Shown one piece after another: positions 15,594-57,063 of a DNA stretch of 64,000 bases; the first letter of the stretch is position 1; each line of letters starts with the position of its first letter. The stretch comes from an uncultured cyanobacterium (lineage in GTDB: Bacteria; Cyanobacteriota; Cyanobacteriia; Cyanobacteriales; Geitlerinemataceae), in contig CALCCD010000039.1 in assembly GCA_937899645.1 (NCBI GenBank), forward strand, positions 1 to 64,000, given 5' to 3'. The notes under the pieces were generated by a model that ran no database searches, was not told the origin of the DNA, and was given only the letters and a program-made list of their open reading frames with translations. The position numbers and the translations under genes were made by a program.

Positions 15594-16448
15594 TCAAGCG
15601 CGCGCGCTGCTTTTCACGAAACAAGCTAGACCGACATACACGAGGATATGCGCCAGCAGAATTCCCCAATTCAGCGCGAGATTATCGAACGTCATCGCAT
15701 AGGGATCGATCGGAATCGGCAGCTTCGACAGCGTTTCTTCGACGATCGCACCGGGCATGATGCTGTCTCCTAGAATCTGGCCTTCCAGGTCGATCGGAGT
15801 GGCATATGCGCCCACCGACCACCGCCCGATTGCCAGCCACGACATCAATTTCGCCGCGCCTTCGACCTTAAACAGAACTCCAGACAAGACGATCTGCGCG
15901 ATCGTCACGAACAGCATCAAGTTACTCGCCTGATCGGTGTTGTTCGAGACCGTCGAAAGCAGCAGACCTAGGCTTAGCGCGGCGACGATCGTCAGCCAGG
16001 TCGTCACGTACAGCCCAATACCCCAGGGGACGACCTCTGCGGCAGGCGCTTGAAACAGCACCAGAACGAACAGCACGATCGCGAGCGACTGCACGAACGC
16101 GATCCCGCCCCTGACCGCCAGCTTCGAGAGAACATAAGCGGTCGGAATCAGCCCATAGAGACGCTCGTCTTCGTAGCGCTCTGTTTCGCTGACGATCTCG
16201 CGGACGGAAAATAGCAGCCCGAGCAGCAGGTTAATGCAGGTCAGGATAAAGACGACTTTCAGCGCCGACGGAAAAGCGGCTCCCTCCGGCACGACGGCCA
16301 GCGCTTCGGGCGTACCGGTCACAACGCGCAGCAGACAAATCGCGATCAGTCCTGCCAGCAGCGAGATAATCAAACTCGCTCGCGAGGCGCGCACGAGGCG
16401 AAAGTATCGCTCCGCTTGGGTGGTGAAGTGAGTCCAAAAAATACGCAT
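15594..16448 (-). CDS. ABC-2 type transporter permease
   Basis: Membrane component of an ABC exporter, 284 aa, with six predicted helices. Cytoplasmic text between helices 2 and 3 reads SETERYEDERLYGLIPTAYVLSK, typical of ABCG/White-type half-transporter permeases. The ATG at 16448 (MRIFWTHF) lies 19 bp downstream of the FHA-ABC ATPase gene, so the two should form one transporter. It is the last gene of the eight-gene minus-strand cluster that begins at 29336. Substrate unknown. Confidence 0.85.
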   Translation of the reverse strand: MRIFWTHFTTQAERYFRLVRASRASLIISLLAGLIAICLLRVVTGTPEALAVVPEGAAFPSALKVVFILTCINLLLGLLFSVREIVSETERYEDERLYGLIPTAYVLSKLAVRGGIAFVQSLAIVLFVLVLFQAPAAEVVPWGIGLYVTTWLTIVAALSLGLLLSTVSNNTDQASNLMLFVTIAQIVLSGVLFKVEGAAKLMSWLAIGRWSVGAYATPIDLEGQILGDSIMPGAIVEETLSKLPIPIDPYAMTFDNLALNWGILLAHILVYVGLACFVKSSARA

Positions 16449-16467
16449 GAAGAGAGTAGTGCAGCGA

Positions 16468-17943
16468 CTAGCGCAACTTGTCGTAAATGTCTTCGATGTC
16501 GTCAACCTCATACTTGGCTTTGACCGCCACAGGCGTATCGAAGATCTGCAAATTGCCGCCGCGACCGATCAACGCAATGCGATCGGAGTGTTCGGCAATA
16601 AAGGGCGAGTGGGTCACGATGACGATCGTCTTACCCAAAGTTTGTGCCAGCTCTCGCAGCACCCTAAAAACCTCTTTTTCCAGGCCGGGATCGAGCGCGG
16701 AGGTCGGTTCATCGAGGAAAATTCCCTGGGGGTCTGTCAACAGAGCTGCCGCAATGCCGACGCGCTTTTTCTCCCCGCCGCTCAGGCTGCGAATATATTT
16801 TTCCTCACTGTCGCCAAGATCTACGCTTGGCAATGCGATCGCTCGGATACGCTCGCGAATCTCTGTCAGGGTCGTGTCGGGCGGCAACCGCAGGCGCGCG
16901 GTGTACGTTAGCGACTCGCGCACGGTGAGGGCGGAGTCGAGAATGTCGGTTTGGGGAACGTAGCCGATCGACGCCTGCGCGAGGTTGTAGCGTCCCGGCA
17001 TCGGGCGGTTGTTGACGCGCACAACGCCCTGCGATCGCGGTAGCAGACCGAGTACGGACTTCATCGACGTTGATTTTCCCGCGCCACTCGGCCCGATAAA
17101 CGACGTGATTCCCGGCTCGATATCCAGCTTCGGGCAGTTGACGAGTTGTCGTCCGCGAGCGGGCGGCGCGAACCCGAGCTTCTGAGGCAGCGTCTTGCGC
17201 TCGGCAGCAAAACAAAGGATGTTGCGCGCTTCGATACGGAGGCTATCGCTGCCGCTGAACACCTCTTCTAAGATGGCGTCGCGATAGGTAAACACCAGCT
17301 CGCCAATCTGCACCGAGTCGCCATTGTTGAGCCGGTGGGTGGAGTCGATCGCGCTGTTGTTGACGAGTGTTCCGTTCGTGCTGTTGTTGTCTTCGAGCTG
17401 ATAGGTATCGGCCCCAGTGCGCGAGATCGTTGCGTGGACGCTGGAGACGAGCGGGTTATCGAGCCGAACTTGGCAGCTCGCATCGCGCCCGATTGACAGT
17501 GAACCAGAGGTCGCCAGCTCCTGCTGGAGATCGATGCGGAGGCGAGCGTTTTTCCCCTTGACGAGCTGCGTCTCAGAACTGGCAAATGCCAGGACGACGC
17601 AGTTGCGGGGGTCTTGACCGATTGTCAGGCGATCGTTTTGCCCATCGATGCGATACCCCGCCTGCAAATCGACGCGCTTGCGATTGGCGAACAATCCGTT
17701 ACTGCTGCCCGAGGACACGACTGCCGCAGATTCAAATGCGCCGTCGAAAATTCGGTACGTCTCGCCCTCGCGTCGCAGCACCGCTTGGCGGTTGCTCACG
17801 ACGTTCCAGAGGTCAGTGCTGGGGATTTGGATCGTCGCCCAAGTCTCGTCGCGCCCGAGCCGATATTCCGAGTCGGTGAGATCGAATTTGAGCGACTGAC
17901 CTTGGTACTTCACCTCCAGCTTGACTGCGCCCGCTACTGACAT
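16468..17943 (-). CDS. FHA-FHA-ABC transporter ATPase
   Basis: Protein of 491 aa with two phosphothreonine-binding FHA domains fused to an ABCG-type ATPase. FHA1 spans about 8-112 (YRLGRD); FHA2 spans about 147-222 (SIGRDASCQVRL, then NNSTNGT). The ATPase has Walker A GPSGAGKST at about 284-292, signature LSGGEKKR at 387-394 and Walker B IFLDEPTS. The ATG at 17943 overlaps the stop of the kinase gene (ATGTCAGTAG), indicating translational coupling; an ATG at 17967 is possible. In mycobacteria the FHA-ABC transporter Rv1747 is controlled by the neighbouring kinase PknF. A similar kinase-to-transporter switch is inferred here. Confidence 0.92.
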   Translation of the reverse strand: MSVAGAVKLEVKYQGQSLKFDLTDSEYRLGRDETWATIQIPSTDLWNVVSNRQAVLRREGETYRIFDGAFESAAVVSSGSSNGLFANRKRVDLQAGYRIDGQNDRLTIGQDPRNCVVLAFASSETQLVKGKNARLRIDLQQELATSGSLSIGRDASCQVRLDNPLVSSVHATISRTGADTYQLEDNNSTNGTLVNNSAIDSTHRLNNGDSVQIGELVFTYRDAILEEVFSGSDSLRIEARNILCFAAERKTLPQKLGFAPPARGRQLVNCPKLDIEPGITSFIGPSGAGKSTSMKSVLGLLPRSQGVVRVNNRPMPGRYNLAQASIGYVPQTDILDSALTVRESLTYTARLRLPPDTTLTEIRERIRAIALPSVDLGDSEEKYIRSLSGGEKKRVGIAAALLTDPQGIFLDEPTSALDPGLEKEVFRVLRELAQTLGKTIVIVTHSPFIAEHSDRIALIGRGGNLQIFDTPVAVKAKYEVDDIEDIYDKLR

Positions 17944-19391
17944 GCTCCAAAAGCGATTTCGTCGCATGATGGAAGGCTATAGCTCGGTGCGGGCGGATTG
18001 TAGGTCGGCGCGGGCGGATTGTAGGTCGGCGCGGGCGGATTGTAGGTCGGCGCGGGCTGGTCATAACCGTAACTCGGCGACGGCGACGAGCCGTAACCGT
18101 AGCTCGTCGCGGGCGCAGGCGCGGGCTGCGGGCTGGCGTAGCTCGAGGACGGCGCGTTCGTCTCGACGGGAGATGGCGTCGGAACAGCTTGTGGGGTAGC
18201 CGTCGGAGTCGGGGTCGGCTCCGGCGTGATGTCCGGGCTCGGTTCTGGCGAGGCGATCGGCTCGGGGATCTCAGCTTCTGCCTCTTCTAATCTGTTCGGT
18301 GCTTCGAGCTGGGGAGTTTCGGCACTGGTGGGCTCGACCGTTGAGTCACCACCGCGCAAGGCCGCAATGCCGACGCCACCGGCGATGATGCAAGCCGCGA
18401 CGCCAGAGGCCACGAAAAGGGGGGCGCGGTTGGGGCTCGGGGACGGGGACGGAGCATAGGAGCCGGTCGCGGTGTGCCCATCGGGCATGATGGTCGTCTT
18501 TCGCCCGCCCGGTTCGGGAGAGGAGGAGAGGATTTCGGTCTTTTTAGCCATGGTTGCAGGAAGAGAGTCGAGAAACTGTTGGGCGGAGGCCGGTCGATCG
18601 AGCGGGCTGGGGGAAAGCGATCGATCGATCGCGCTGGCAAATCCGACAAAAGCGGGGTGCTGCTGCGCTGACGCGGACACCGACGATCGCCACAGCAATT
18701 TGCCAGAGGGCAGGCGATCGAAGCTATCGGGATCGCGCCCGGTCAGCAAAAAGACGAGCGTGCAGCCGATGGCATAGAGGTCGCTCTGGGGCGAGAACTC
18801 TCCAGTCTCGATTTGCTCGGGCGCGCAGTAACCGGGTTTGACAACGCGGGTGCGATCGCGCTCGCCGACACCACATTGATATTTTGCTGTTGAGCCGAAG
18901 TCGATCAGGACGGGCTGGTCTCGCTCGGCGGCGTGAATGACGTTTTCGGGCGAGATGTCACGGTGGCATAATCCAGCTTCATGGAGCGTGCTGACGATCG
19001 GCACGAACTCCTGTGCAAACTTCAGCGCGCGATCGAGGTCAAAGGCTCCGGCCTTGCGCGCGATTTGCTCGTAGGTGTCGCCATCGATAAATTCTTGAAC
19101 GATCGCCGGGTAGCCGTCGCACTCATCGACGTAGCGCCAGCATTTCGGGACGCGATCGTGCAGCTCGCCGCACTTCTGAAGCGTCTCGGCTTCCTCGCGA
19201 AACATCCGCTTGGCAATCTCGAGACTCGACTCGTCAAACTGGTCGGGATTGAACTGCTTGATCGCCACGCGACGATCGTCGCGCGTGTCGGTCGCGACGT
19301 AGTTCCGACTGAAGCCGCCTTCCGGCAATATTGCGTCAATTCGATAGCGATCGAAGAGAACGTATCCGATGGAGTGGGGCGCGGCTGTCAT
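17934..19391 (-). CDS. Membrane Ser/Thr protein kinase with Pro-rich extracytoplasmic tail
   Basis: Hanks-type kinase of 485 aa. Catalytic features are K45 in VAIK, HRDISPEN at 143-150 (Ser replaces the common Lys of HRDxK), DFG at 164-166 and the activation-segment end PGYCAPEQ at 186-193. A juxtamembrane stretch has threonines such as KKTEIL (T285) and RKTTIMPD that could dock FHA domains. One membrane helix lies at about 324-346. The outer region is rich in Pro, Thr and Ala and ends in NPPAPTY repeats. The gene overlaps the FHA-ABC gene, its probable phosphorylation partner. Confidence 0.92.
   Translation of the reverse strand: MTAAPHSIGYVLFDRYRIDAILPEGGFSRNYVATDTRDDRRVAIKQFNPDQFDESSLEIAKRMFREEAETLQKCGELHDRVPKCWRYVDECDGYPAIVQEFIDGDTYEQIARKAGAFDLDRALKFAQEFVPIVSTLHEAGLCHRDISPENVIHAAERDQPVLIDFGSTAKYQCGVGERDRTRVVKPGYCAPEQIETGEFSPQSDLYAIGCTLVFLLTGRDPDSFDRLPSGKLLWRSSVSASAQQHPAFVGFASAIDRSLSPSPLDRPASAQQFLDSLPATMAKKTEILSSSPEPGGRKTTIMPDGHTATGSYAPSPSPSPNRAPLFVASGVAACIIAGGVGIAALRGGDSTVEPTSAETPQLEAPNRLEEAEAEIPEPIASPEPSPDITPEPTPTPTATPQAVPTPSPVETNAPSSSYASPQPAPAPATSYGYGSSPSPSYGYDQPAPTYNPPAPTYNPPAPTYNPPAPSYSLPSCDEIAFGACQ
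17984..18057. repeat. 21 bp tandem repeats coding NPPAPTY
   Basis: About three and a half near-identical 21 bp units in frame encode repeated NPPAPTY at the C-terminus of the kinase. Such low-complexity, Pro-rich extracytoplasmic tails may span or bind the cell wall. The repeat number is likely to vary between strains. Confidence 0.9.
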
Positions 19392-19508
19392 GGAGAACGG
19401 TGCTCGAAATCTTTGATGCTATGGTCGCATATCCGCTGGGCAATGCGGGTGGGCTCGATCGAGTGGCAAGTGCCCGATCGAGCCCTGCCGGGAAGAGAAT
19501 TCAACCCT

Positions 19509-22500
19509 CTACAAATTTAGAAATTCATCGAGGATCGACTTTTTTCGCGTCTCGAAGTCCTCATCGGAAATCAAACCCAGTTCGCGAACTTTTTGCAGCT
19601 CCTTGAGCTTGTCTTCCAAGCTCGATGACGGGGCTGCTGCGGGTGCTGGAGTCGGTGCGGACGTTTCGGCGGCGGGAGTGGCCGTTGCTTCCGGTTGGGG
19701 CATCGGCGCGGACGCCGAGTCGGCGTCAATCGACGGCAGGCCGTATTTCTCGATCGTCTCTTTGACGATCTGGCGATCGCGGCGGTACTCGGGGCTGTCT
19801 TGACCCGCAGGCAACTCGGCCTCGCGCATCTTCAAGAATTCCGCCAGCTTGTCGGTCAGCACCCGCTTCGCGTCGTCCGATTCCGCATCGGCAAAAATCC
19901 GACTCACCTGGGCGCTAACGGCCTCGCGATCGCGTCGGCAGGTGTCGATTTCGAGCAACTGAACGGCCTCTTCCCAGGTCGAGGCGATCTCGACTTTCTC
20001 ATCGCCGGTCGCGCTCTGAACCTGGTAGCAAATCGTGTTGTCTTTGCTGGCCTTGTTGAACTCGACGGTCAGCACCTCGAGGACGCGGGCGAGGACGACG
20101 AGCTGGTAGACGCGCTCGTCCGGCGGGAAGACATCCCAGAACGGTGGATCTTTCTGAATGTGAACCGGAATCGGCATATCCCGCGCCTCGCCTCGGAATT
20201 GGGCGCGTTTAGCTTCGACCATCTGCCCTTGCCAGTCCTGATAAGACTTGCGCAGTTCGCGCATCCCCTCGATGCAGCGCAGCGAGAAACCGCCCATCTC
20301 CTGCACGAAGACGATGCGGTGGCGCTCTTCTTTTGCCAGCGGCGCGATGCTCGACTTGTTACCCAGACGCTCGGAGAGAACCTCGAGCAGCTTTTGGGCG
20401 GCGGGCTCCTCAGTATCGCGCCCGTTGACGATCGCCGCCATTTGGTTGAGCTGCGGCGTGAAGCTCGCATCGCCGCGCGTCATCTCCGGCCGCGACAGGA
20501 TCAAGAACGGATTCGACTTGCCGTAGGCGATCGCGATTTGGCTGCGAATCTCGGCGTTGTCGTTGTTATAGGTCTTGTAGAGCAGGTCGCAGGCCGACAG
20601 CTCGCGCACCAGCTTGCTCGACTGCGGCGCTTTGGTGATGCGCGCGCGGGCTTCGTCAAAAATGGTGCCGCGTACGTCTTCGTCCTGTACGTCTTCGAGG
20701 CGCTGCAAGTCGAACAGTCGGAAAACGCGATCGGCGTTGCGGTTTTCTTGCCAGAGACCACTCAGCTCCGGTAGCACCGACTCCGCCATCGTCGAACATA
20801 GATTGTTTAACCCCTGTTCGTAGGGGCTCTGGCTGGTTTCACTCGATCCGGACTGCTGCTCGACGAAATCGCGATATAGCTCGTTGAGGACGGCGCGATC
20901 GTAGAGCTTGATGCCGTTGACGCTCAAGGTATCGGCGCTATTGGCCTGCTCGTCGGCCGCCGCCGCAAAGCCGTCGCGAGCGATACGCAGTTTTTGGACG
21001 AAGCGGTTGTACTGCGATCGCAGCTTCTCGAGATGTTCCTTCATCCGTGCGATGACCACCTGTCCTAGCTGGCGAGACTTGGCCTGGACGATCGCCTTGA
21101 GCGATTCGTTCAAGTTTTGCAGCGCTTCTTCGCAGAGCTCTTCCATCTTGCCCTGCTTGGTCAGGCCGAAACGATCGCGGTAGTACACGATGTCCTGGAG
21201 CTTCTGGGCGTAGGCCTCCTGGAAGACATTCTGCTGCTGTTCCCAGGTGTCGAGCTGGCGTTTGAAGATCTTCTCCGTGTTCATGATAATTTGCTCGCAC
21301 AGTTCTAGGAACTGCTCGGCAAACTTCGGCCCGCGATTGCGATCTTGTAGAATCTCGTAGAGCTTCTCTTCCAGTGATTTGCGGGTTTGGATGATGACGC
21401 GATCGCGATTCTCGTACATTTTGATGAGGTAGTCGCCGTGCATGCGATCGTCGGGGCTGCTGTCGTTGAAGTGCTCGTCGCGATACTTGCGAGCGCTCGG
21501 ATCCAGGAACGTATCGACGAAATTGCGAATCGCGCCCTCCTCGGAGCCGAACAGGTTGAGACCCTCCTTCGTGCATTTGAGGCGATCGTTGTCGGCAATG
21601 TCTTGCCGCACGGTGTTGACCCAACTGCTCACGGTTTCGAGCAGCGAGCCTTTACCCGACGAAGACAGATCGGCCAGCAGTTCCATCGAGGTGAGGCGCA
21701 TCGGCTTGAGGATTTCTTTCTCGACCTCGCTGCGCATATCTGCTGGAAGCGCCATATCGCCGTTGAGCCACCAGCCCACCAGGTCAGCAGACAGGCGCTC
21801 GGACAGTGAAGCTCGAATCTGCGAAATTGGAATTTCGACCGTCGAGAGGCCGAAGCTCATAAAGTTTTTCGGATAGCTGCGACCGCAGGGATCGGCCTGC
21901 GCCCAGGAGCCTTTGATATTGTCGCGAATCGAGCGCTTGTGCGGCGCGAAATCCGAGGTTAGATCGAGAAAAATATTCTGCGCGATCGCTTCGCGAATGC
22001 TGTCGAGGTCGAGCTCTCCCGCTTCGTTTTTCGTACCGACTAAATAGGTAAAGTCAAACGGCGCGCGCTGCTCGATAATTTCGCCCGCTGCCGAGGAGGT
22101 GAACTGCGCGCGATACTCCGTCCGCGAATCGGAAAAGTAGCTCAGCTCCATCAGCGCCGCGTAACCGTTCGCCAAGACGCGATCGCCCACGTCGATCGAA
22201 GCGAAGGCATTCGGCATCGGCACGATCGACGTCGTCGTCGGACTGGTCGTCACTTTTCGCAGCCAAGCGCGAATGCAATAAGCCAGGTCGAGAATCATGC
22301 CGCTACCCGTCCCGCCGGAGAGCGAACCGACCACGAAGACGTTCATCGCCGTCGGTTTTACTTTCACGTCATAGTTATTGAGCATGAACTGCTCGTGGCC
22401 TTTGGCGCGATTACAGGCTTGGGTGAAGGTCTTCTCGATGCCCGGGTAGTTGTAGAAAAATGCGAACCGGCCGCAGCCGCGAATCTGCCCAGCTCCGGCT

Positions 22501-22832
22501 TCGAGTGCCGTTACGTTTTTTTCGAGCTCTTTGGGAAACCAAGCCTCGATCCAGGGATAGTTCCCCATGTTTTGCAGGATCGCATCGGCCTCGATTCCTT
22601 TAACCGTGGCGTGATACTTCTCGTTGTCTTTCAGCGTCGAACCGGCGGCGCTGGGGTTACTGACTTGGTAGTCCTTGTCGGTGTCGATCGACAGAAAGCT
22701 AACAACCGGAAAAGCCTTTAAGCTGCCGTAAACCTCTTCGATCGCCCGCCGAACCCTAGCGATCACCTCATTCCCCGTACCGCCAATCCCGACGATGACC
22801 GTCGGTACCATTGTTTTCTCATCAACTGCCAT
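19509..22832 (-). CDS. Tubulin-like GTPase domain protein with C-terminal SHOCT
   Basis: Large protein of 1107 aa. The N-terminus matches the bacterial tubulin-like family (Tubulin_2 type): GIGGTGNEV at 15-23, IDTD at 49-52, GAGQIRGCGR at 113-122 and the GTP-binding signature SGGTGSG at 172-178. A long mostly helical middle region (about 380-1000) with coiled-coil character follows, then a Pro/Ala linker and a SHOCT-like segment at about 1070-1107 (LQKVRELGLISDEDFETRKK). SHOCT tails often mediate oligomerisation. A good Shine-Dalgarno sequence (AAGAGG) supports the start. Role unknown; the context is kinase, vWFA and ABC transporter genes. Confidence 0.9.
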   Translation of the reverse strand: MAVDEKTMVPTVIVGIGGTGNEVIARVRRAIEEVYGSLKAFPVVSFLSIDTDKDYQVSNPSAAGSTLKDNEKYHATVKGIEADAILQNMGNYPWIEAWFPKELEKNVTALEAGAGQIRGCGRFAFFYNYPGIEKTFTQACNRAKGHEQFMLNNYDVKVKPTAMNVFVVGSLSGGTGSGMILDLAYCIRAWLRKVTTSPTTTSIVPMPNAFASIDVGDRVLANGYAALMELSYFSDSRTEYRAQFTSSAAGEIIEQRAPFDFTYLVGTKNEAGELDLDSIREAIAQNIFLDLTSDFAPHKRSIRDNIKGSWAQADPCGRSYPKNFMSFGLSTVEIPISQIRASLSERLSADLVGWWLNGDMALPADMRSEVEKEILKPMRLTSMELLADLSSSGKGSLLETVSSWVNTVRQDIADNDRLKCTKEGLNLFGSEEGAIRNFVDTFLDPSARKYRDEHFNDSSPDDRMHGDYLIKMYENRDRVIIQTRKSLEEKLYEILQDRNRGPKFAEQFLELCEQIIMNTEKIFKRQLDTWEQQQNVFQEAYAQKLQDIVYYRDRFGLTKQGKMEELCEEALQNLNESLKAIVQAKSRQLGQVVIARMKEHLEKLRSQYNRFVQKLRIARDGFAAAADEQANSADTLSVNGIKLYDRAVLNELYRDFVEQQSGSSETSQSPYEQGLNNLCSTMAESVLPELSGLWQENRNADRVFRLFDLQRLEDVQDEDVRGTIFDEARARITKAPQSSKLVRELSACDLLYKTYNNDNAEIRSQIAIAYGKSNPFLILSRPEMTRGDASFTPQLNQMAAIVNGRDTEEPAAQKLLEVLSERLGNKSSIAPLAKEERHRIVFVQEMGGFSLRCIEGMRELRKSYQDWQGQMVEAKRAQFRGEARDMPIPVHIQKDPPFWDVFPPDERVYQLVVLARVLEVLTVEFNKASKDNTICYQVQSATGDEKVEIASTWEEAVQLLEIDTCRRDREAVSAQVSRIFADAESDDAKRVLTDKLAEFLKMREAELPAGQDSPEYRRDRQIVKETIEKYGLPSIDADSASAPMPQPEATATPAAETSAPTPAPAAAPSSSLEDKLKELQKVRELGLISDEDFETRKKSILDEFLNL

Positions 22833-22936
22833 AATTTAACCTCTTGTTTGCGATACGGAATGGGTGGGAATAGTGCCCGAATAAAACTCAAGATCGGGGC
22901 AACAATACAGAAGTTGCACGCGCTACGGACTTTGCG

Positions 22937-23845
22937 CTAGCAGGGCTTGATAAACGGAATCGTGGCAAATTTCCAAACGGCAATCAGCGTTGCTGTCGTC
23001 CAAAACAGCGCGTGTGAGACGGCGGCTCGTCCTGCCATATCGATCCGCAAGCCGAACATACCTTGAAATACCCAACGATCGAGCGGCAAAATCACCATCC
23101 ACATCAACGCGATCCAGGCCATTCCCAACCAGAAGATAATCCACTTGATGTTGCTGTTGATGCTCCCAAAGAGCTTTTCTTGCAGACTGCTCGCCAGCTC
23201 GCTGGCTTCACTCGCCAGCGACAAACCGCCCGTCGTCAGCGACATTTGACCGGCTTCGGCCAAATCTTCTGGTGCAACACCCACAAAGATGCTGTGGATC
23301 TTGATGCCCTGTGCCACGATCTGCGCCAGTAGACTGGGGTCAAGCGGCGTACTGGGTTTGCCGTCAGTCACTACGAGCAGCTCGCGACAGCGATCGGAGA
23401 CCTGCAAGAGGGCGTTAGTCGCATCGGTAATCGCGAGATTGAGATCGGTGCGCTCCGTCTCGAGCCTGCCCGCGAGCGTCGGATCGCTGAGCTTGGCGAG
23501 CATCTCCGTCTCGACGGCTTCTGGGTCGGCCTTGAATGACTCGGTGAGCGGCTCGGTCTGACCAGCAAAGCCGAAGACTTTGATTTGGTTAGGCCGATCG
23601 AGGGTCGTATTGCTGCGCTCGAGGTATGCCTTGACGGCGGCGATTTCCTCGAACATGACGCTGCCCGGCTGCTCGAAGTTTGCCAGGTCGCCGGTGCTGT
23701 TACTCAGATCGAGAGCGATTGCGACGTTGACGTTCGGCCTCCCCAAACCGAGTAGGGCAGACAGCAGCGCGATCGCGAGACAGAGCCCAAAGGCGATTGC
23801 GGGAATGTTGAATAGGGGATTTTCGAGAATCGTGCGGCGTGTCAT
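22937..23845 (-). CDS. Membrane-anchored vWFA domain protein
   Basis: Protein of 302 aa with a helix at about 11-33, a von Willebrand A domain at about 38-225 and two C-terminal helices at about 234-252 and 276-292. The metal-ion-dependent adhesion site is complete: DLSNS at 46-50, T133 in ERTDLNLAI and D161 in VVTDGKPS. The N-terminal arginines suggest N-in topology, which would place the vWFA domain on the periplasmic or lumenal side. It lies between the tubulin-like gene and the anchored binding-protein gene and may bridge partners through metal-dependent binding. Confidence 0.9.
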   Translation of the reverse strand: MTRRTILENPLFNIPAIAFGLCLAIALLSALLGLGRPNVNVAIALDLSNSTGDLANFEQPGSVMFEEIAAVKAYLERSNTTLDRPNQIKVFGFAGQTEPLTESFKADPEAVETEMLAKLSDPTLAGRLETERTDLNLAITDATNALLQVSDRCRELLVVTDGKPSTPLDPSLLAQIVAQGIKIHSIFVGVAPEDLAEAGQMSLTTGGLSLASEASELASSLQEKLFGSINSNIKWIIFWLGMAWIALMWMVILPLDRWVFQGMFGLRIDMAGRAAVSHALFWTTATLIAVWKFATIPFIKPC

Positions 23846-23956
23846 TGGTATTTAAAGTGCGATCGCAACGATCGCGAGTGCGGGCGGACGAGTGGCAGTA
23901 GAGCTCGCCGTCGAGGCGATCGAAACATCAACCTCGACGGCGGAACCGGTGAAGCG

Positions 23957-25711
23957 CTATAGACAGCCGTTCTCGACGGAAACGAAACTGAAATTCGCAC
24001 CGCTCGGGCCGCCGGAGTTCGACGGCTGGACGCAAACGAGCGGCACGCTGTCGATCACGTTGTAGTCCGCCTGGGTGGCTCCTACCTCGACGCCATCGTT
24101 GAGGATCTGCGATGCTTGGGCGCGATCGGGCGCGTTGCGCAGCACCCGCGACATCAGGTCGGTCGCGTCGAACGCCGCCGTCGTCCGCCAGCTCACCCGG
24201 CCTTTCCACAGTTGCGCCGTGTCTTTCGAGAAGCCCGCGTCGTTCTCCTCCCAGCGCCAGGGCACGGCTAGCACCATCTCGTTCACGGCCGACTCGCCGT
24301 TGAGCAGCAGCTGCGGCGAGTAGAGCGCGGCATCGCCCATCAGCAAAAGGCGATCGGAGCCGAGAGCCGCGTTGTTTTGCGCCACGCTGATGGCCACGGA
24401 AACGCCAGATTCGCCGGGAAGCGCCAGCAAAATCGAGTTGGAGTCATTCGTCCGCGCTTTGTTGACCAGTGCCGAGCCGTCGAGGCTGGTTTCGACGCCG
24501 ATATCGACCGAGTCGAGCTTTGCGCCGGGCGATAAGGTATCCTCGTTCGCCTCAAACTGTTGCTTGAGGTAGTTACTGTAAGGGTTGCGCGAGTCGAAGA
24601 CCAGCGTTACTTTGGCTTCTTTCTGCGTGGCCTTGGCGTGTTCGATCAGCGTCGCCAGTGCCTTGATGACGTACTGCTTGTAGAGGTCATCGACGCCCTG
24701 GGCGATCGGCACCGTCGTCAGGATGCTGTTGTTCGTGCCGATATCTTCGGTTAGTTCGATCGTCATCGGCGCAAGTACCGGCAGTTGTTGCGCGGCGTAA
24801 CCTTGCAGGACGACGGCGCTGTACTCCGTCGCGCCGTGGCCGATGATACCCAGCACTTGCTCCGTACCCATTAGCACGCCCGCAATTTCGCCTTCCAGCG
24901 CGTTTTCCGGCGTGGCATCGCCCGCATCTACGACGACAACCGCCATCAGGCGCTCGACCCCCCTGTCGTTGAACTGCTTCTGCGCCGTGGCGACACCGCG
25001 CAGGATTTCTTTGCCCGTATCGTCATCGAGGGGTAAGGGCGCAACGACTGAAACCACAATCGGGTTGCCGCTCTCCATTGCTTTGGAGTTGTTCAGATAA
25101 ATCTGCGCTTCGGGATCGTTCGAGTCCGCCGCCACAGCCGTCTCGTACAGCGAAATTGCCGCGCCCCAGTCGCGCAGCGCGAACTTCGTGCTGGCCGCTT
25201 CTTTCTGAGCGACGTTGTTCGAGCTTTTAATCAGCGTCCGTTCGCCTTGACTGAAGATTTCGACGATCGACTTATCGGCGCACTCGCTGACGAAGTCGTC
25301 GGGGTCGGTTGCCGCACAGTTGGCGATTGAAACGTTACCGCCACCAATATTGTTCGGGCTCGGTGGAGGCGTGCCGCCCACAGTCTGGCCGGTATTTACA
25401 CCGGGCGTTGGCGTCGATGTGGGGGAAACTGCCGTCGTTCCACCGTTTTTATTTCCGCTCAACATGCGCGACACGCCGAAAGCTCCGCCCGCCAGTGCGA
25501 CCACGGCCGCTGCCGCCATCGCGATCGGCTTCACCGGCAAACCGCTGCCGCCGCGGCCCCCAACCGGACTGCGGCCCCCACTCGAGCCGCCACCGACAAC
25601 GTCGTTCTTACTCAGACCACAGACATCACACAGTAGACCCGTATTGTCGTGTGGGAGGTGCGGATCGAATTCAGTGCCGTCCGCTTTGACCCCAGTGCAA
25701 GTCCATGACAT
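23957..25711 (-). CDS. Membrane-anchored periplasmic-binding-protein sensor with N-terminal Cys/His segment
   Basis: Protein of 584 aa. The first 35 residues contain C5, H18, H21, C28 and C31 (LCDVCG), a likely small zinc-binding segment. A Gly-rich linker and one membrane helix (about 62-81) follow, then a Thr/Pro-rich spacer, a TPR-like helical pair (WGAAISLYETAVAADSNDPEA) and a type I periplasmic-binding fold of the branched-chain amino-acid/ANF receptor group to the C-terminus. ABC-type uptake partners are absent, so it is more likely a sensor. The ATG at 25711 is supported by an upstream GGAG; the longer frame lacks family features. This binding domain is known fused to Ser/Thr kinases in cyanobacteria. 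Confidence 0.85.
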   Translation of the reverse strand: MSWTCTGVKADGTEFDPHLPHDNTGLLCDVCGLSKNDVVGGGSSGGRSPVGGRGGSGLPVKPIAMAAAAVVALAGGAFGVSRMLSGNKNGGTTAVSPTSTPTPGVNTGQTVGGTPPPSPNNIGGGNVSIANCAATDPDDFVSECADKSIVEIFSQGERTLIKSSNNVAQKEAASTKFALRDWGAAISLYETAVAADSNDPEAQIYLNNSKAMESGNPIVVSVVAPLPLDDDTGKEILRGVATAQKQFNDRGVERLMAVVVVDAGDATPENALEGEIAGVLMGTEQVLGIIGHGATEYSAVVLQGYAAQQLPVLAPMTIELTEDIGTNNSILTTVPIAQGVDDLYKQYVIKALATLIEHAKATQKEAKVTLVFDSRNPYSNYLKQQFEANEDTLSPGAKLDSVDIGVETSLDGSALVNKARTNDSNSILLALPGESGVSVAISVAQNNAALGSDRLLLMGDAALYSPQLLLNGESAVNEMVLAVPWRWEENDAGFSKDTAQLWKGRVSWRTTAAFDATDLMSRVLRNAPDRAQASQILNDGVEVGATQADYNVIDSVPLVCVQPSNSGGPSGANFSFVSVENGCL

Positions 25712-26043
25712 CAGTAATATCTCCTCAGTTTTTTGATTTCTCAGTACGATTGCGGGTTTGAATGAGTTGGGAACGTCTTGAAAGACGGCCTTTGATGCCA
25801 TGGATAAAGACGAGTCCAGTGTTTTTTCAGGCGAGCTAGAAAGGAAGCCTCAGGTGTATTAGAACTTACGGATATTTGCAGAACTCGCTTGCTCTTAACA
25901 ATCCCTGCAACAGTATATATGTGAGGTTTACTTTGAAAAGGTCTTTGTCGGCTTTTCCTATCAAAGTTATCTGACGCGATCTTAGGAATTTTTCTGAGTC
26001 TGAATCCTCTAGCGATCGCCCATCGCAGAAAAATCGCCCACGT
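25712..26043 (-). other. Intergenic region within the kinase/tubulin-like cluster
   Basis: AT-richer 332 bp stretch between the protease gene and the binding-protein gene. It holds the GGAG ribosome-binding site of the downstream gene near its left end. No gene is supported. It may contain an internal promoter, since the flanking genes are not tightly spaced. Confidence 0.4.
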
Positions 26044-26895
26044 TCAGAGAGCCGGGCCTGTTTCTGTCTCGTGGGAGGCTTCTGGGAAAAATTCCGCACC
26101 GCGCTCGAGAGCGGAGTCGATCGGGATACTCCAGCTCGATGCTGATGCCATCTCGCGTAAATCTTCGGGAATCGATCGCCCGTCCGGGTAGACGAACGGA
26201 TCGCCCCATAATGGATAAGCGTGCAAGCCGTTGATTGCGATGAGTTCGCCCCTAAGATTCACCACGGGGCCGCCGCTCATGCCCTTCATTATTGGATTGC
26301 TGTAAGCGTAGCGATAGCCGTCAACGAGCGGCTCGTCGAGAGCGTAGGTCAGCTCGCCCTGTGTCCAACGAAATTTGCTGTTCTCTGGCCGCGTGCGATC
26401 GGCATCGACAAACGGATAGCCAGTGGCAAATGTCCTCTCGCCCGGTGACACCTGAGTTTGAACGGAGGCAACACGCAGGTTGCGATCGCTGGTAAACGAG
26501 AGAAATGCAAGATCGTAGCCGCCTACACGATCGTCGAGTTCGATCGTAGCGTCATAGATCTGCCCGTCATCAGTTTGGATTTGTACGGTCTCGTCGCGCA
26601 AAACATGAGAGTTCGTCGCCACGATGTAGCGATCTTCGCCGCCTTCGATTTCGTGGCGGGCAACGATCGCGCCGCTGCCCCAGCTTTCTTCGCCGAACAC
26701 TTTTACCGTAAACTGACGAACGCGATCGCCGAACTCGCTTGCCTCGAGAGAAGGAAAAAAGTCGTCCGTTGTGTAATTGCTTTCCGGGCAGAAGAAACAA
26801 GGTAATTCTTGGGCTCTACAGGCCGGGAGTGCGATTTCCATCGTAATGGAAGTACCAAAAAGAATCGCGATCGTTCTCGTCAAGCCAATCAACAT
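26044..26895 (-). CDS. Secreted trypsin-like serine protease
   Basis: Exported protease of 283 aa in the S1/HtrA-like fold without a PDZ domain. The signal peptide covers about 1-28. The catalytic triad is H97 in TNSHVL, D128 in YDLAFLSF and S207 in GMSGGPVV. Two cysteines (PCFFCPE at 32-37) near the mature N-terminus may form a disulfide. It is transcribed toward the anchored binding-protein gene and probably acts in the periplasm on a partner of the cluster. A nine-base homopolymeric C tract (minus strand) lies about 46 bp upstream of its start. Confidence 0.88.
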   Translation of the reverse strand: MLIGLTRTIAILFGTSITMEIALPACRAQELPCFFCPESNYTTDDFFPSLEASEFGDRVRQFTVKVFGEESWGSGAIVARHEIEGGEDRYIVATNSHVLRDETVQIQTDDGQIYDATIELDDRVGGYDLAFLSFTSDRNLRVASVQTQVSPGERTFATGYPFVDADRTRPENSKFRWTQGELTYALDEPLVDGYRYAYSNPIMKGMSGGPVVNLRGELIAINGLHAYPLWGDPFVYPDGRSIPEDLREMASASSWSIPIDSALERGAEFFPEASHETETGPAL

Positions 26896-26940
26896 TCAGC
26901 AAAGAGACCAATAGGGACAAGTGCAGAGTACGCGAATGCC

Positions 26941-26949
26941 GGGGGGGGG
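26941..26949. repeat. Nine-base homopolymer (G on +)
   Basis: A run of nine G residues lies 46-54 bp upstream of the minus-strand protease start at 26895. Such tracts in promoter regions can change length and alter expression; here that is only a possibility. Confidence 0.8.
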
Positions 26950-27029
26950 AGTACGGGGTGGCGTCAGGCCCTAATGTCTCGTTACGCCGATCGTCGATCG
27001 TCTCGACTCTCTACTCACGTCAGCGCAGA

Positions 27030-29336
27030 CTAATTACTTATGAGGTAGTGCATCTGTCCTTCCGCATCTCCCGCCAGAATATCGCCGTTTGGCAGGGACG
27101 CCACGGCGCGCACGATTGGCGGGAAAGCTACAGGGGACGGAGAGGAAGAGCGCAGGCCAGTGTCGATATCCCAATATGAGACTACACCGGGGCCGATGCT
27201 ACTGTCGCCCGTTCCCACGATTGCCGTTTGGCCGTCGGGAGAGAGTGCCAGGCTGCGAACCTCAAATCCCGTGTCGAATTCTCGTAGAATCGCCCAGGTT
27301 TGAGTATCGATGACCGCGATATTGCCGTAGTTATCGCCGGTGATCAACTTAGAGCCATCGGGGGTAAAGTGCATCTCGATGATGACATGAGGAAGCTGCA
27401 ACTCGCGCGTACCGCGTCCGCCTTCAGCGATGTTCCATCGGAATAGCACTCGCCCGATCGCGCCTATGGCATGTGTGCCGTCTGGAGCTGCAATCAGGTC
27501 GCTCGGTGCAAGGATACCGTCGTTGTAGGTGCGGATTTGCGTGCCGTCGGCTACGTTATAGTGCTCGACTTTGCCACCTGCGCCGCCGATCAGTAGGCTC
27601 TGACCGCTGCGGCTAAAGGCAACCGCCGACACGCCGCGACCATCGTCGAATGCGAAGGTGCGCAAAAGCTGTTGACTCACCACATCCCACAACATCACCG
27701 TGCCGTCACCGCTGCCGCTGGCGAGCAGACGGCCATCCGGACTGAAGGCCAAGTCTTGGACGCTGGTGTCGTGGTTGCCGAGCGTAGTCGTGTTCGCGCT
27801 GCTTCGCAGATAGACCGTACCTCTGCCGGAACCGATCGCCACTCGACCGTCGGAGCTGGCGACGATTTTCTCGATCGAGTCATCCGCAATAAAGTCAGGG
27901 TCATCTGGGTCGGTAACGATGTCACCGTCATCCGGATCGACCAAGGTAATGACATCATCGTCTGGGTCGGTAACGATGTCATCATCATCTGGACTGACTA
28001 AGGTGATGACATCATCATCTGGATCGGTAACGATGTCATCATCATCCGGATCGACCAAGGTAATGATGCTACTGTTCATTCCTCCAAAGCGTTCGTCAAA
28101 GGCGGACAAGAGTGCAACTTCATAGGGCGAGGGCGATTCTGCCTCGTACTCGGATAGCAGCGTTCTGCCTTGCGACTCGTCACCGGACGCGGCGGAAAGG
28201 TCGCCGTAGGTGCGACGCACGTAGGCGCGCGAAAGCAATGTGAAGGGATGGGTGAGGGTACTCACGGCGTCGTTCGCGCTTGTATTTGCCTCGAGTGCTA
28301 AGCCTTCGTCTGCATAGCTGCGAGCTTGCAGCGCCAGAGACAGCGCTTGCAGGCGTGGAGAAAGGCGCGACTGGGCGCGACGGAGATCTTCGATCGCGTC
28401 GTTATGACGATCGAGCTTGGCGCGAGCCGCACCGCGCACTAGCAGCGCCTCGGCATTATTCGAGTTGCGTCGCAGTACCTGGCTCGCATCGTCGATAACC
28501 CGGCTGTAGTCATCGCCTTGCGCGAGGCGAGCGTGGGCGAGCCCGATCAACGCAACCTCAGAGTCCGGCTTGAAGAGTAACCCCTGGGAAAAGTCGGCGA
28601 TCGCACCGTCATAGTCTCCGTTCGCCATGCGAACGAGTGCATTTTGCGCGAAGGCACTCGGCGCGTTGTTGAGGAACGTTTCGATCGTAATCCCCCAGTA
28701 GAACCCGCCGCCTCGATCGGCAGCCGCGTGAATGCCGACCAGCTCGCTACTCTCATTGAGGATCGGTCCACCGCTCATACCGCCGCGCGTCGAACCGTTA
28801 TAAATCAGGTTATACCCGCTGCTCTGGGCTCCATCGAGCTGGTTTGACACCTGACCGAGCGAGCAAGTTGGCCGCGAGGCATTCAGACCCGTCGGCCAGC
28901 CCGAAACCGATACATCTGCACCGTTGTTAATGTCCGTCTGCATGCGATCGCCGACGATGCGGTAGTCGTCATTGCTCTCCATCGTCACGATCGCCATATC
29001 GAGATCGAGATGGCTCGGGAAGCGGATAATGTCCTCGCGTTCGAGCCGGTAGGGCGATCCGCCGCCTGGCGGTGTGACCTGGTAAGTGAGCTGCGGCTCG
29101 CCGACAACATGACCGGCAGTCAGGATGTAGTACAGACCATCCTGCTCGGCCAGCAGCACGCCACTACCTTGAGACGGGCGACTCGGATCGGCACTGTCAA
29201 TCTGAACCGTGATTTGCTCTGCAAGCTGGCACGCTGCCTCAGAACCAGAAGCTCTCGGAACGAGACCGACGAAACAGAGCGCTGCCGTCGCGAGGGCGGG
29301 AAAAGTGCGGCAGAATGGAACAGACGAGGAAAACAT
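27030..29336 (-). CDS. Secreted trypsin-like protease with TPR, acidic repeats and WD40 propeller
   Basis: Protein of 768 aa. A signal peptide (about 1-32) precedes a trypsin-like domain with H76 (TAGHVV), D113 (LDMAIV) and S188 (GGMSGGPI). TPR-like repeats span about 228-345. Three 20-residue acidic repeats of the ITLVDPDDDDIVTDPDDD type at about 425-480 may bind calcium. WD40-type repeats from about 490 to the end (LAFSPDGRLLASGSGDG, LALSPDGQTAIVG) form a propeller. It is the first gene of the minus-strand cluster. The domain set suggests a regulated periplasmic protease scaffold that recruits partners. Confidence 0.9.
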   Translation of the reverse strand: MFSSSVPFCRTFPALATAALCFVGLVPRASGSEAACQLAEQITVQIDSADPSRPSQGSGVLLAEQDGLYYILTAGHVVGEPQLTYQVTPPGGGSPYRLEREDIIRFPSHLDLDMAIVTMESNDDYRIVGDRMQTDINNGADVSVSGWPTGLNASRPTCSLGQVSNQLDGAQSSGYNLIYNGSTRGGMSGGPILNESSELVGIHAAADRGGGFYWGITIETFLNNAPSAFAQNALVRMANGDYDGAIADFSQGLLFKPDSEVALIGLAHARLAQGDDYSRVIDDASQVLRRNSNNAEALLVRGAARAKLDRHNDAIEDLRRAQSRLSPRLQALSLALQARSYADEGLALEANTSANDAVSTLTHPFTLLSRAYVRRTYGDLSAASGDESQGRTLLSEYEAESPSPYEVALLSAFDERFGGMNSSIITLVDPDDDDIVTDPDDDVITLVSPDDDDIVTDPDDDVITLVDPDDGDIVTDPDDPDFIADDSIEKIVASSDGRVAIGSGRGTVYLRSSANTTTLGNHDTSVQDLAFSPDGRLLASGSGDGTVMLWDVVSQQLLRTFAFDDGRGVSAVAFSRSGQSLLIGGAGGKVEHYNVADGTQIRTYNDGILAPSDLIAAPDGTHAIGAIGRVLFRWNIAEGGRGTRELQLPHVIIEMHFTPDGSKLITGDNYGNIAVIDTQTWAILREFDTGFEVRSLALSPDGQTAIVGTGDSSIGPGVVSYWDIDTGLRSSSPSPVAFPPIVRAVASLPNGDILAGDAEGQMHYLISN
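27897..28064. repeat. Tandem coding repeats for Asp-rich segments
   Basis: Three imperfect 60 bp units built on GATGACATCATCATC-like sequence encode 20-residue Asp/Val/Thr repeats between the TPR and WD40 regions of the protease. They could bind calcium and separate the two domains. Confidence 0.85.
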
Positions 29337-50702: not shown

Positions 50703-50793
50703 AGCGAAGGGTTAAAATACCTTGACGCGATCGCCGATGAAACATCGTCCGGCGGTCAGTTTTTCCGTCTTTCCGCCATTTTTTGGAGTGCCC

Positions 50794-51546
50794 ATGACTG
50801 TCGCCACACCGTCGTCCCTGCGCGAACGACAATCTCCACTGATTCGCAGACTGGCCGACGCGATCGAGACCGTGTGGCAAGACAACCTCGACCTTACGCC
50901 GTTTCACCTACCCGAAGACCTCGGCTACGTGGAAGGCAAGCTGGAAGGCGAGCGGCTGACCATCGAAAACCTCTGCCACCAGACGCCGCAGTTCCGCAAG
51001 CTGCACCTCGAGCTGGCGCAAGTGGGCAAGAGCCTCGACATCCTCCACTGCGTGATGTTCCCGCGTGCCGGGTATGCGCTGCCGATGTTCGGAGCCGATA
51101 TTGTTGGCGGACGCGGCAAAATAGGCGCGGCGATCGTCGATCTTTCGCCCACCTCTGACGATCGCACCCTGCCCGACGCCTACCGCCAGGGCTTGAGCGC
51201 GCTACCGCGGCCGGACTTCAGCCAGCCGCGCGACCTGCCCGAGTGGGGCGACATTTTCTCGGAGTTTTGCCTGTTCGTCCGTCCGGCCAGCCCCGAGGAA
51301 GAAGACCGCTTCCTGGAGCGCGTCGTGTCGTACCTGACGCTGCATTGCCAGCAAGCGGTTGCGATGGAGCCCGTCATCGGCAGCGGACGCGACGCCGCGA
51401 TCGCCGGGCAGCGACGCTACTGCGCCCAACAACAACAAAACGACAAAACGCGCCGCGTCCTCGAAAAAGCTTTTGGCGACGAGTGGGCGGAGCGCTATAT
51501 GACGACGGTATTGTTCGATTTGCCGCCCGAAAGCGACGCAGATTAG
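50794..51546 (+). CDS. pcyA: Phycocyanobilin:ferredoxin oxidoreductase
   Basis: Four-electron reductase of 250 aa that makes phycocyanobilin from biliverdin for phycobiliproteins and phytochromes. The catalytic set is E73, H85 and D102, which correspond to Glu76, His88 and Asp105 of the Synechocystis enzyme by a constant offset of three. Diagnostic text is [24 protein letters not shown] Shine-Dalgarno GGAG six bases before ATG 50794 supports this start. Confidence 0.96.
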
Positions 51547-54028: not shown

Positions 54029-55231
54029 ATGGGCCGTGCAAAGAAAGCCATTCTCGCCTACTCCGGCGGAGTCGATACCTCGGTGTGTATCCCCTATCTC
54101 AAAGAAGAATGGGGCGTTGAAGAAGTCATTACCCTAGCCGCCGACCTCGGACAAGGTGAAGAACTCGGCCCAATTAAGCAAAAAGCCCTCGACTCCGGCG
54201 CGAGCACTTCCCTCGTGGTTGACGTAACGAAAGAGTTCATCGAAAACTACGCTTTCCCCTCGATCCAGGCCAACGCGCTCTACGAAAATCGCTACCCGCT
54301 TTCGACGGCGCTGGCCCGCCCGCTGATTGCCAAAAAGCTGGTGGAAGCTGCTGAAGAGTACGGCGCAGATGCCGTCGCCCACGGTTGTACCGGTAAAGGG
54401 AACGACCAGGTGCGCTTCGATGTGGCGATCGCCGGTCTCAACCCCGAGCTGAAAGTCCTAACCCCAGCGCGCGAGTGGGGCATGAGTCGCGAAGAGGCGA
54501 TCGCCTACGGCGAAAAATTTGGCATTCCGTCGCCGGTGAAGAAATCCTCTCCCTACAGCATCGATCGCAACCTGCTCGGCCGCAGCGTTGAAGCCGGTGT
54601 GCTCGAAGATCCCTGGAACGAGCCGCCGGAAGAAGTCTACGCGCTGACCTCGGCGATCGCCGATACGCCGGACGAGCCCGAGTACGTCGAAGTCGGCTTT
54701 GAAGGCGGTCTGCCCGTCTCGCTCGACGGCGAGGCGCTAGAACCGGTGGCACTCGTGACCAAGCTCAACGAAATCGTCGGCCGCCACGGCTACGGCCGCA
54801 TCGACATGGTCGAAAACCGCCTCGTCGGCATCAAGTCGCGCGAAATCTACGAAGCTCCGGCACTGCTGGCGCTAATTCACGCCCACCGCGATATCGAAAC
54901 CCTGACGCTGACTAAAGACGTGGCGCACTACAAGCGCGGCATCGAAGAGACCTACAGCCAAATGATCTACAACGGTCTGTGGTTCAATCCGCTCAAAGAA
55001 GCGCTGGACGCCTTTATCAAAGAAACTCAGACGCGCGTTGCGGGTACGGTTCGCCTGAAACTGTTTAAAGGCACGCTGACGATCGCCGGTCGCAAGTCGG
55101 CCAACACGCTGATTACCGAAGAGCTTTCGACCTACGGCGCGGACGATAAGTTCGACCACAAAGCAGCGGAAGGCTTCATCTACGTATGGGGTCTGCCGAC
55201 GCGCGTCTGGTCGGAAAAAACGCGCGGTTAA
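54029..55231 (+). CDS. argG: Argininosuccinate synthase
   Basis: Joins citrulline and aspartate in arginine synthesis. The 400 aa protein has the N-type ATP pyrophosphatase P-loop [10 protein letters not shown] at 10-19, then [10 protein letters not shown] and [13 protein letters not shown], all diagnostic. Length is normal. A strong hairpin with a T tract follows 100 bp later, directly before the next start codon. Confidence 0.97.
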
Positions 55232-55280: not shown

Positions 55281-55333
55281 CAGCCACGAAGGATGCTGCC
55301 GAACTTCTCGGCAAGAAAGCTGAATGAATCGAG

Positions 55334-55380
55334 CGTTCGCGCTAACTTGATGTTTAAATCCGTTAGCGCGAACGTTTTTT
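55334..55380 (+). terminator. Rho-independent terminator of argG
   Basis: Perfect 13-base stem (CGTTCGCGCTAAC and its complement at 55362-55374) with a 15-base loop, then six T residues. The T tract ends at the base before the ATG of the SDR-PhyH fusion gene, leaving no room for a ribosome-binding site. Confidence 0.9.
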
Positions 55381-57063
55381 ATGTCGATCCACGATGAGTC
55401 TGCACCCCGCACGGCCTTGGTGACAGGCGGCAACTCCGGCCTCGGCTTCGAGATTGCTCTCGCCTTGGCTCGCCAAAATTTTCACGTTTTTATCGCCTGC
55501 CGATCGCCCGTTAAAGCCGCCCGCGCCGTCGATCGCCTGCGCCAAGAGTCCGATCGCGCCGACACCGCAAACACCTCAAACATCGAAGCGCTGACCCTAG
55601 ATTTGGCCTCCCTCGACTCGGTGCGCGACTGCGCCGACCGCTTTCTCGCGCGAGATCTCACCCTGGACGTTCTCGTCGCCAATGCCGGAATCTTCCACGG
55701 GCGCGGCATGACCCACGAGCGCTTCGAGACGATCTGGGGGACAAATTACCTCGGTCACTTTTTGCTGGTGCAGCGCTTGCAGAGTTGCCTGAGTCGCTCG
55801 GCGCGCATTTTGGCGATCGCCTCGAATGTGGCCTACCGGCCTCAGCGGCTCGACTGGGGCGCGATCGCCCGACCGACGCCGCTGAACTTTATCGGGGCGT
55901 ACGGTCTCTCGAAGCTGTGTATGTTGCTCTGGGTGCGAGAGCTACAGAGGCGTTGGGGCGATCGCGGCGTGTGCGTTAATGCCTTCCATCCCGGCTTCGT
56001 GCGCTCGAATATCACGATCGGCCATCGGCTCGCACGGCTGGTGGGCATCGGCGTCTCGGCGGCGGACGCGGCGCGCGCTGCGGTGGAGGTCGTGGCCGAT
56101 CCGGCGCGGGAGAGGGTCGGCGATCGCTTTTTCGATCGCCACCGAAACCCGCTGCCCTGGCCGAAGCTGGCTGAGTCGGCGTCGCTAGCCGAGGAGCTGT
56201 GGGAACGCAGCCAGCTCTGGACGGGTAGCGTTCCCGTGCGGACGTTGGCCCTGACGGCAACGCCCTCGTTCGAGCCCGCCGATCGCAACTGGGCCGCTCG
56301 CGCCCAGTTCCATCGCTTCACCGATCGCGAAATCTCCGGCCCCTACCGCCTCGCGCTTTCGCCGGACGAAGTGGCTGAAATCGCGCGAGCCATCCGGCAC
56401 GAGGTGCTGCCGACCCCACCGGCAAAGCGAACGCTCGAGCAGTGTTTGCGGTTTCTGGTGACGCTGCGGTTCGGGTCGCTGCTGCTGCTGCTCGTGCAGC
56501 TCTCGAAAGGCGAATACTATATGGAGCGCCACCTCGATGCTCCCGCCGTGCAGGCGCTGGCGCGCGACCCGAAGCTGTTAGATCGCCTGCGCGATCGCCT
56601 GGGGAAGCGGCTGACGCTGTGGCGATCGGAGATTTGGGCGAACTACCCGGCGCAGCAGGCCGTGCCGTTCTGGCACCGCGACGTGTATCCGAAGCTGCTG
56701 TCGGGGCCGGGGAAAAGCCTCAACGCCTATATCGCTCTATCGGACGTAACGGCCCAAAATGGCTTCGAGTTCGTGCCCAACAACTGGCTCGACTGCAACA
56801 ATCACGCCGTTAAAATCTCCGATCCGTTCAGCGGCAACCACTTGCTGACGATCGATCCGAGCATCGAGGCCGAAGCCAAGCCGATCGTCTTGAAGGCGGG
56901 CGAGTTCGTGCTGTTTTCCGACCGCCTCGTCCATCGCTCGATCCGCAACACCAGCGGGCGGGTGCGCCTGTCGATCGTGCTGCGCGTCAGCCAGTCGGGC
57001 GTATTGGCCTCGGGCTACACCTCGGCGGCGGGCGGCAGCTCGATGGCGATCGGCGAACGTTGA
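55381..57063 (+). CDS. Fusion of short-chain dehydrogenase and PhyH-type dioxygenase
   Basis: Protein of 560 aa with two enzyme domains. The N-terminal SDR (about 1-260) resembles the protochlorophyllide-reductase/retinol-dehydrogenase group: TGGNSGLG at 15-22, NAG at 101-103, S148 and Y174xxxK178. The C-terminal domain (about 370-555) has Fe(II)/2-oxoglutarate dioxygenase ligands H432 and D434 (FWHRDVYP) and H518 with a downstream Arg (LVHRSIRN, then SGRVRLS), typical of phytanoyl-CoA dioxygenase-like enzymes. Together they could hydroxylate and oxidise one substrate. No other start codon fits, although the ATG directly abuts a terminator. Confidence 0.85.
   Translation: MSIHDESAPRTALVTGGNSGLGFEIALALARQNFHVFIACRSPVKAARAVDRLRQESDRADTANTSNIEALTLDLASLDSVRDCADRFLARDLTLDVLVANAGIFHGRGMTHERFETIWGTNYLGHFLLVQRLQSCLSRSARILAIASNVAYRPQRLDWGAIARPTPLNFIGAYGLSKLCMLLWVRELQRRWGDRGVCVNAFHPGFVRSNITIGHRLARLVGIGVSAADAARAAVEVVADPARERVGDRFFDRHRNPLPWPKLAESASLAEELWERSQLWTGSVPVRTLALTATPSFEPADRNWAARAQFHRFTDREISGPYRLALSPDEVAEIARAIRHEVLPTPPAKRTLEQCLRFLVTLRFGSLLLLLVQLSKGEYYMERHLDAPAVQALARDPKLLDRLRDRLGKRLTLWRSEIWANYPAQQAVPFWHRDVYPKLLSGPGKSLNAYIALSDVTAQNGFEFVPNNWLDCNNHAVKISDPFSGNHLLTIDPSIEAEAKPIVLKAGEFVLFSDRLVHRSIRNTSGRVRLSIVLRVSQSGVLASGYTSAAGGSSMAIGER

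Follow-up and report, generated by a model that had tools for sequence, protein, structure and literature searches.

An uncultured cyanobacterium of the Geitlerinemataceae carries a short-chain dehydrogenase/reductase (SDR) and a PhyH-type Fe(II)/2-oxoglutarate (2OG) oxygenase joined in a single protein. The gene lies at positions 55381-57063 (+ strand) of the 64,000-nucleotide stretch of DNA analysed here (the window). It encodes an uncharacterised, conserved two-domain enzyme in which the combination is new, both component families being well known. On balance we think it probable that this is a genuine, anciently fused, stand-alone bifunctional oxidoreductase, which would perform a C-H hydroxylation and an alcohol/carbonyl interconversion on one hydrophobic molecule. 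An earlier note on this DNA knew of no characterised enzyme of this architecture. None was found either in the literature searched (which included few subscription journals) or in the PDB, where SDR and PhyH domains match separately.

The open reading frame is uninterrupted, with no internal stop, and specifies 560 amino acids. Pfam, invariant residues and Foldseek place the SDR domain at about residues 8-283 (55402-56229, + strand) and the oxygenase domain at about residues 318-548 (56332-57024, + strand). The adh_short profile PF00106 matches residues 11-212 (E 7e-24; 84.8 bits, cut-off 26.6) and the PhyH profile PF05721 residues 384-529 (E 1.5e-12; 48.7 bits, cut-off 22). With one reading frame and both Pfam domains above their cut-offs, the description of an SDR and a PhyH-like dioxygenase in a single protein is upheld. 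The two are connected by a variable linker (about residues 284-317; 56230-56331, + strand), recognised by low model confidence and family comparison: residues 285-315 mostly have pLDDT below 50 in the full-protein model, and across the fusion family the linker measures 5-53 residues with a mean identity of about 24%.

Homologues were searched in 59 near relatives and in 386 genomes across the phylum. Including the window genome, 19 genomes carry the fusion: 8 of the 59 near relatives and 13 of the phylum sample, two being common to both. The fusion is thus sparse within Cyanobacteria (13/386). The search for the same fusion in other genomes, which the earlier note had proposed, yielded homologues in 18 other cyanobacterial genomes, at 42-60% identity, full-length except for one truncated copy; 17 of these, and 18 of all 19 copies, reach the C-terminus intact, one of them (G001) beginning at a contig edge. 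In the phylum sample, at E≤1e-30, non-carrier genomes match the SDR half only, and in the host genome the fusion is present once, all remaining matches being to the SDR half. Carriers are spread over eight families of one order. Within the window's own family, the fusion is present in all three genomes of its genus and absent from the other 11. One scan of genome contigs for relatives of the fusion found none, and a contig search with SDR peptide patterns gave no fusion-type PhyH among the matches listed (80 loci, up to 8 kb on each side).

Neither accidental read-through nor an assembly join can account for the gene, as this two-domain protein also occurs in 18 other genomes, with surroundings that vary from genus to genus. 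Many independent assemblies show the frame intact, so the frameshift or join that might have undone the fusion was not encountered. The truncated copy, in G168 (L060 9248-10660), lacks the oxygenase part beyond residue 451 and with it the distal His and Arg, which no forward frame of the stretch read restores; this copy has either naturally lost one of its activities or been misassembled. Judged from these sequences, the fusion is genuine, because it turns up repeatedly in scattered cyanobacteria and retains both of its active sites there.

Comparison of the two halves indicates how the gene has been inherited. The SDR and PhyH domain trees contain the same well-supported clades, some weakly supported deep branches being different. 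Because these clades are shared, the fusion is old and passed on as one unit. Pairwise identities of the two halves are correlated (r=0.86, 153 pairs). A search of 292 genomes with the PhyH half by itself showed every close relative to be fused and detected only three stand-alone PhyH proteins, all distant. These three (L157, L158 and L159) occur in genomes that also carry the fusion (G083, G193 and G205), which belong to the family of Nostoc sp. UHCC 0926. They resemble chlorinating enzymes to differing degrees; that of G205, at 352.8 bits, exceeds the chlorinating-enzyme cut-off of TIGR01762 (226.3 bits).

Both active sites are conserved in the intact copies. In the SDR half the cofactor motif TGGNSGLG spans T15-G22, with T15, G16, S19, G20 and G22 invariant in 15 aligned proteins; the family consensus TGxxSGxG fits the classical SDR pattern TGxxxGxG. 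The catalytic set N101 (within N101 A102 G103, the NAG motif), S148, Y174 and K178 is invariant (15 proteins, 18 alignment rows), as are the iron triad H432-x-D434...H518 of the PhyH half and the predicted 2OG-binding R529, 11 residues past H518. The HxD...H triad and distal Arg are those of the PhyH superfamily. The catalytic residues named for both domains in the earlier note are therefore present and invariant, and no intact copy has lost either site. Among close pairs, dN/dS is 0.11-0.20 for the SDR half and 0.15-0.25 for the PhyH half: purifying selection acts on both domains.

In the proposed mechanism, the PhyH domain would use Fe(II), O2 and 2OG to hydroxylate an unactivated C-H bond, and the SDR domain would use NADP(H) to convert the alcohol so formed, or one close by, into its carbonyl or the reverse. 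Arg41, invariant after beta-2 as in SDRs of the LPOR and retinol dehydrogenase (RDH) types, suggests NADP(H) as the cofactor. The flexible linker could allow both domains to reach a single small hydrophobic compound and tailor it in two steps; the fusion itself is the ground for assuming such joint action. A covalent SDR-oxygenase link kept over deep divergence, both active sites being invariant, predicts that both reactions belong to one metabolite. In the full-protein model (pLDDT 74.7, pTM 0.52) the relative orientation of the domains is uncertain because of the pTM, and so is any channelling between them.

No conserved neighbours were found around the fusion gene across genera; its synteny holds within genera and not between them. 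The neighbours seen include O-antigen ligase, DUF362, SbcC-like and HlyD proteins, cytochrome b561, MurT, a phosphonate-binding protein and a helicase. Without conserved neighbours, the gene context is silent on the substrate, and since the gene stands alone, the substrate would be supplied by another, unlinked or general pathway. The interpretation given in the earlier note is reasonable in its broad lines, but the specific substrate proposed there (a pigment, terpenoid or fatty-acid derivative) gains no support, there being neither a conserved neighbourhood nor an informative co-occurrence.

That the substrate is lipophilic, also put forward in that note, is weakly favoured by a hydrophobic helix present in most members. 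This region of the oxygenase domain (residues 356-374; 56446-56502, + strand) is the Kyte-Doolittle maximum of the protein (1.78) and precedes the YMERHLD motif. The helix is hydrophobic in most relatives, though less so in G162 and in genus g64, and for this reason no more than hints at apposition to a membrane and at a lipophilic substrate. A further reading, which we hold as a tentative and rather doubtful idea, is that of a self-contained two-step oxidase acting on a membrane metabolite common among cyanobacteria, be it a pigment, an apocarotenoid or a lipid, and yielding an undescribed oxidised derivative. If so, this oxidation would occur in scattered lineages belonging to eight or more families. 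Once found, the metabolite would give a function to an unnamed enzyme family of sparse and diverse cyanobacteria, and would make a single gene available as a biocatalyst of two coupled redox steps.

Modelled alone, the PhyH half is predicted with higher values (pLDDT 81.7, pTM 0.80). Its best fold match by Foldseek is SyrB2 (2fcu/2fct, TMq 0.60-0.64), followed by SnoN, ThoJ and CytC3. A profile search of PDB sequences also gives SyrB2 (E 5.8e-11) and CytC3 (6.6e-9) as the closest solved PhyH relatives, and both share with the fusion the RHLD and WR(S/T)E motifs. In SyrB2-type halogenases the carboxylate iron ligand is replaced by Ala or Gly, which admits chloride. The fusion, unlike SyrB2 and CytC3, retains the Asp of HxD (Asp434, Asp in 18 of 18 alignment rows) and is joined to an SDR; with TIGR01762 (chlorinating enzymes of SyrB2 type) scoring 46.9 bits against 226.3, a halogenase is ruled out. 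SnoK/SnoN, ThoJ, MysH and PHYHD1 have the same fold as the PhyH half, at a low identity (15-20% over the fold alignments), and these solved proteins have no SDR domain. MysH (9c9n) ranks 24th among the fold matches, and MysH-named chains are absent from the PDB sequence matches at E≤1.

Substrates of SyrB2 and CytC3 are tethered to a carrier protein, and the fusion might likewise serve a scattered pathway of secondary metabolism, in which the oxygenase would hydroxylate a carrier-bound substrate and the SDR would perform a ketoreductase-like step. The kinship just described, the sub-threshold TIGR01762 match and the sparse distribution, once on a megaplasmid, speak for such a role. We nevertheless judge it unlikely: the TIGR01762 score is far under the cut-off, and no NRPS, PKS or carrier protein was detected among 10 neighbouring proteins scanned, all being housekeeping or unrelated. 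The megaplasmid is pn1 of Nostoc sp. UHCC 0926, which carries a close homologue of the fusion; no other record among 72,556 plasmids has a single place that matches 80% or more of the fusion protein. This strain produces mycosporine-like amino acids (MAAs), with mysFIE on its largest plasmid (PMC10510106), possibly pn1 itself. In the available text of that article the MAA dioxygenases MysH and MysI are proteins other than the fusion and no dehydrogenase of the pathway is named. A role in the MAA pathway was rejected, no link having been found in that text.

The SDR half has a different set of relatives. Best PDB matches of the full-protein model are to LPOR (6rnw/6l1g, TMt 0.70-0.80), other SDRs coming next. 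With LPOR- and RDH-like SDRs (the PRK06197 group) it shares the Rossmann fold, TGxxSGxG, NAG, the Ser-Tyr-Lys set and ACR after beta-2; unlike them, it is joined to an oxygenase domain. Both specific profiles are missed: TIGR01289, the equivalog of light-dependent protochlorophyllide reductase, at 80.7 against 331.35 bits, a score which rules out LPOR identity, and PRK06197 at 127.9 against 268. Since the scores lie far below the cut-offs for LPOR and for chlorinating enzymes, the LPOR and SyrB2 matches denote fold and distant kinship, not membership. By fold, both halves match active enzymes, a point in favour of the preferred reading.

This resemblance to LPOR and RDH-like SDRs, together with the hydrophobic helix, speaks for another possibility, in which the fusion modifies an apocarotenoid, a retinoid or another pigment, the SDR half acting like a retinol dehydrogenase. 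In G193 an RPE65-family carotenoid oxygenase gene (L054 10599-11978) adjoins the fusion gene, in convergent orientation. This adjacency was seen in that genome only, and carotenoid oxygenases of this type are present in 48 of 48 genomes tested, carriers and non-carriers alike, so that their co-occurrence is uninformative. Rhodopsin shows no association either (1 of 18 carriers, 2 of 30 non-carriers). A pigment role is accordingly unlikely too.

Fused enzymes are known in which one domain is catalytic and the other binds or positions the substrate. Such a division of roles, with only one domain here being catalytically important, is quite improbable, as both catalytic residue sets are invariant and purifying selection on the two domains is similar. 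Least credible of all, and hardly to be entertained, is a frameshift, an assembly join or a decaying pseudogene, for which one could cite the G168 relative without its C-terminal oxygenase part and a terminator-like hairpin just ahead of the ATG in the window, against a frame intact in many independent assemblies.

The hairpin (55331-55380) consists of a 16-bp stem followed by six T, directly 5' of the fusion ATG, with an RNA folding z score of -3.28. It is terminator- or attenuator-like, and looks like the terminator of argG (argininosuccinate synthase, 54029-55231). A search with its 13-bp arms found a single occurrence in the genome, and no such hairpin was observed ahead of the congeneric fusion gene. 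Its position counts against the preferred reading, in that the fusion gene may not be expressed in this genome. Elsewhere in the window, positions 50722-51546 encode a ferredoxin-dependent bilin reductase of the PcyA family; this gene, argG and the close homologue in Nostoc mark the DNA as cyanobacterial. A same-strand gene run at 15594-29336 (- strand) contains what by eye resemble components of ABC transporters with FHA domains, a Ser/Thr kinase, a tubulin-like protein of 1107 amino acids, a vWA-like protein and trypsin-like/WD-repeat proteins.
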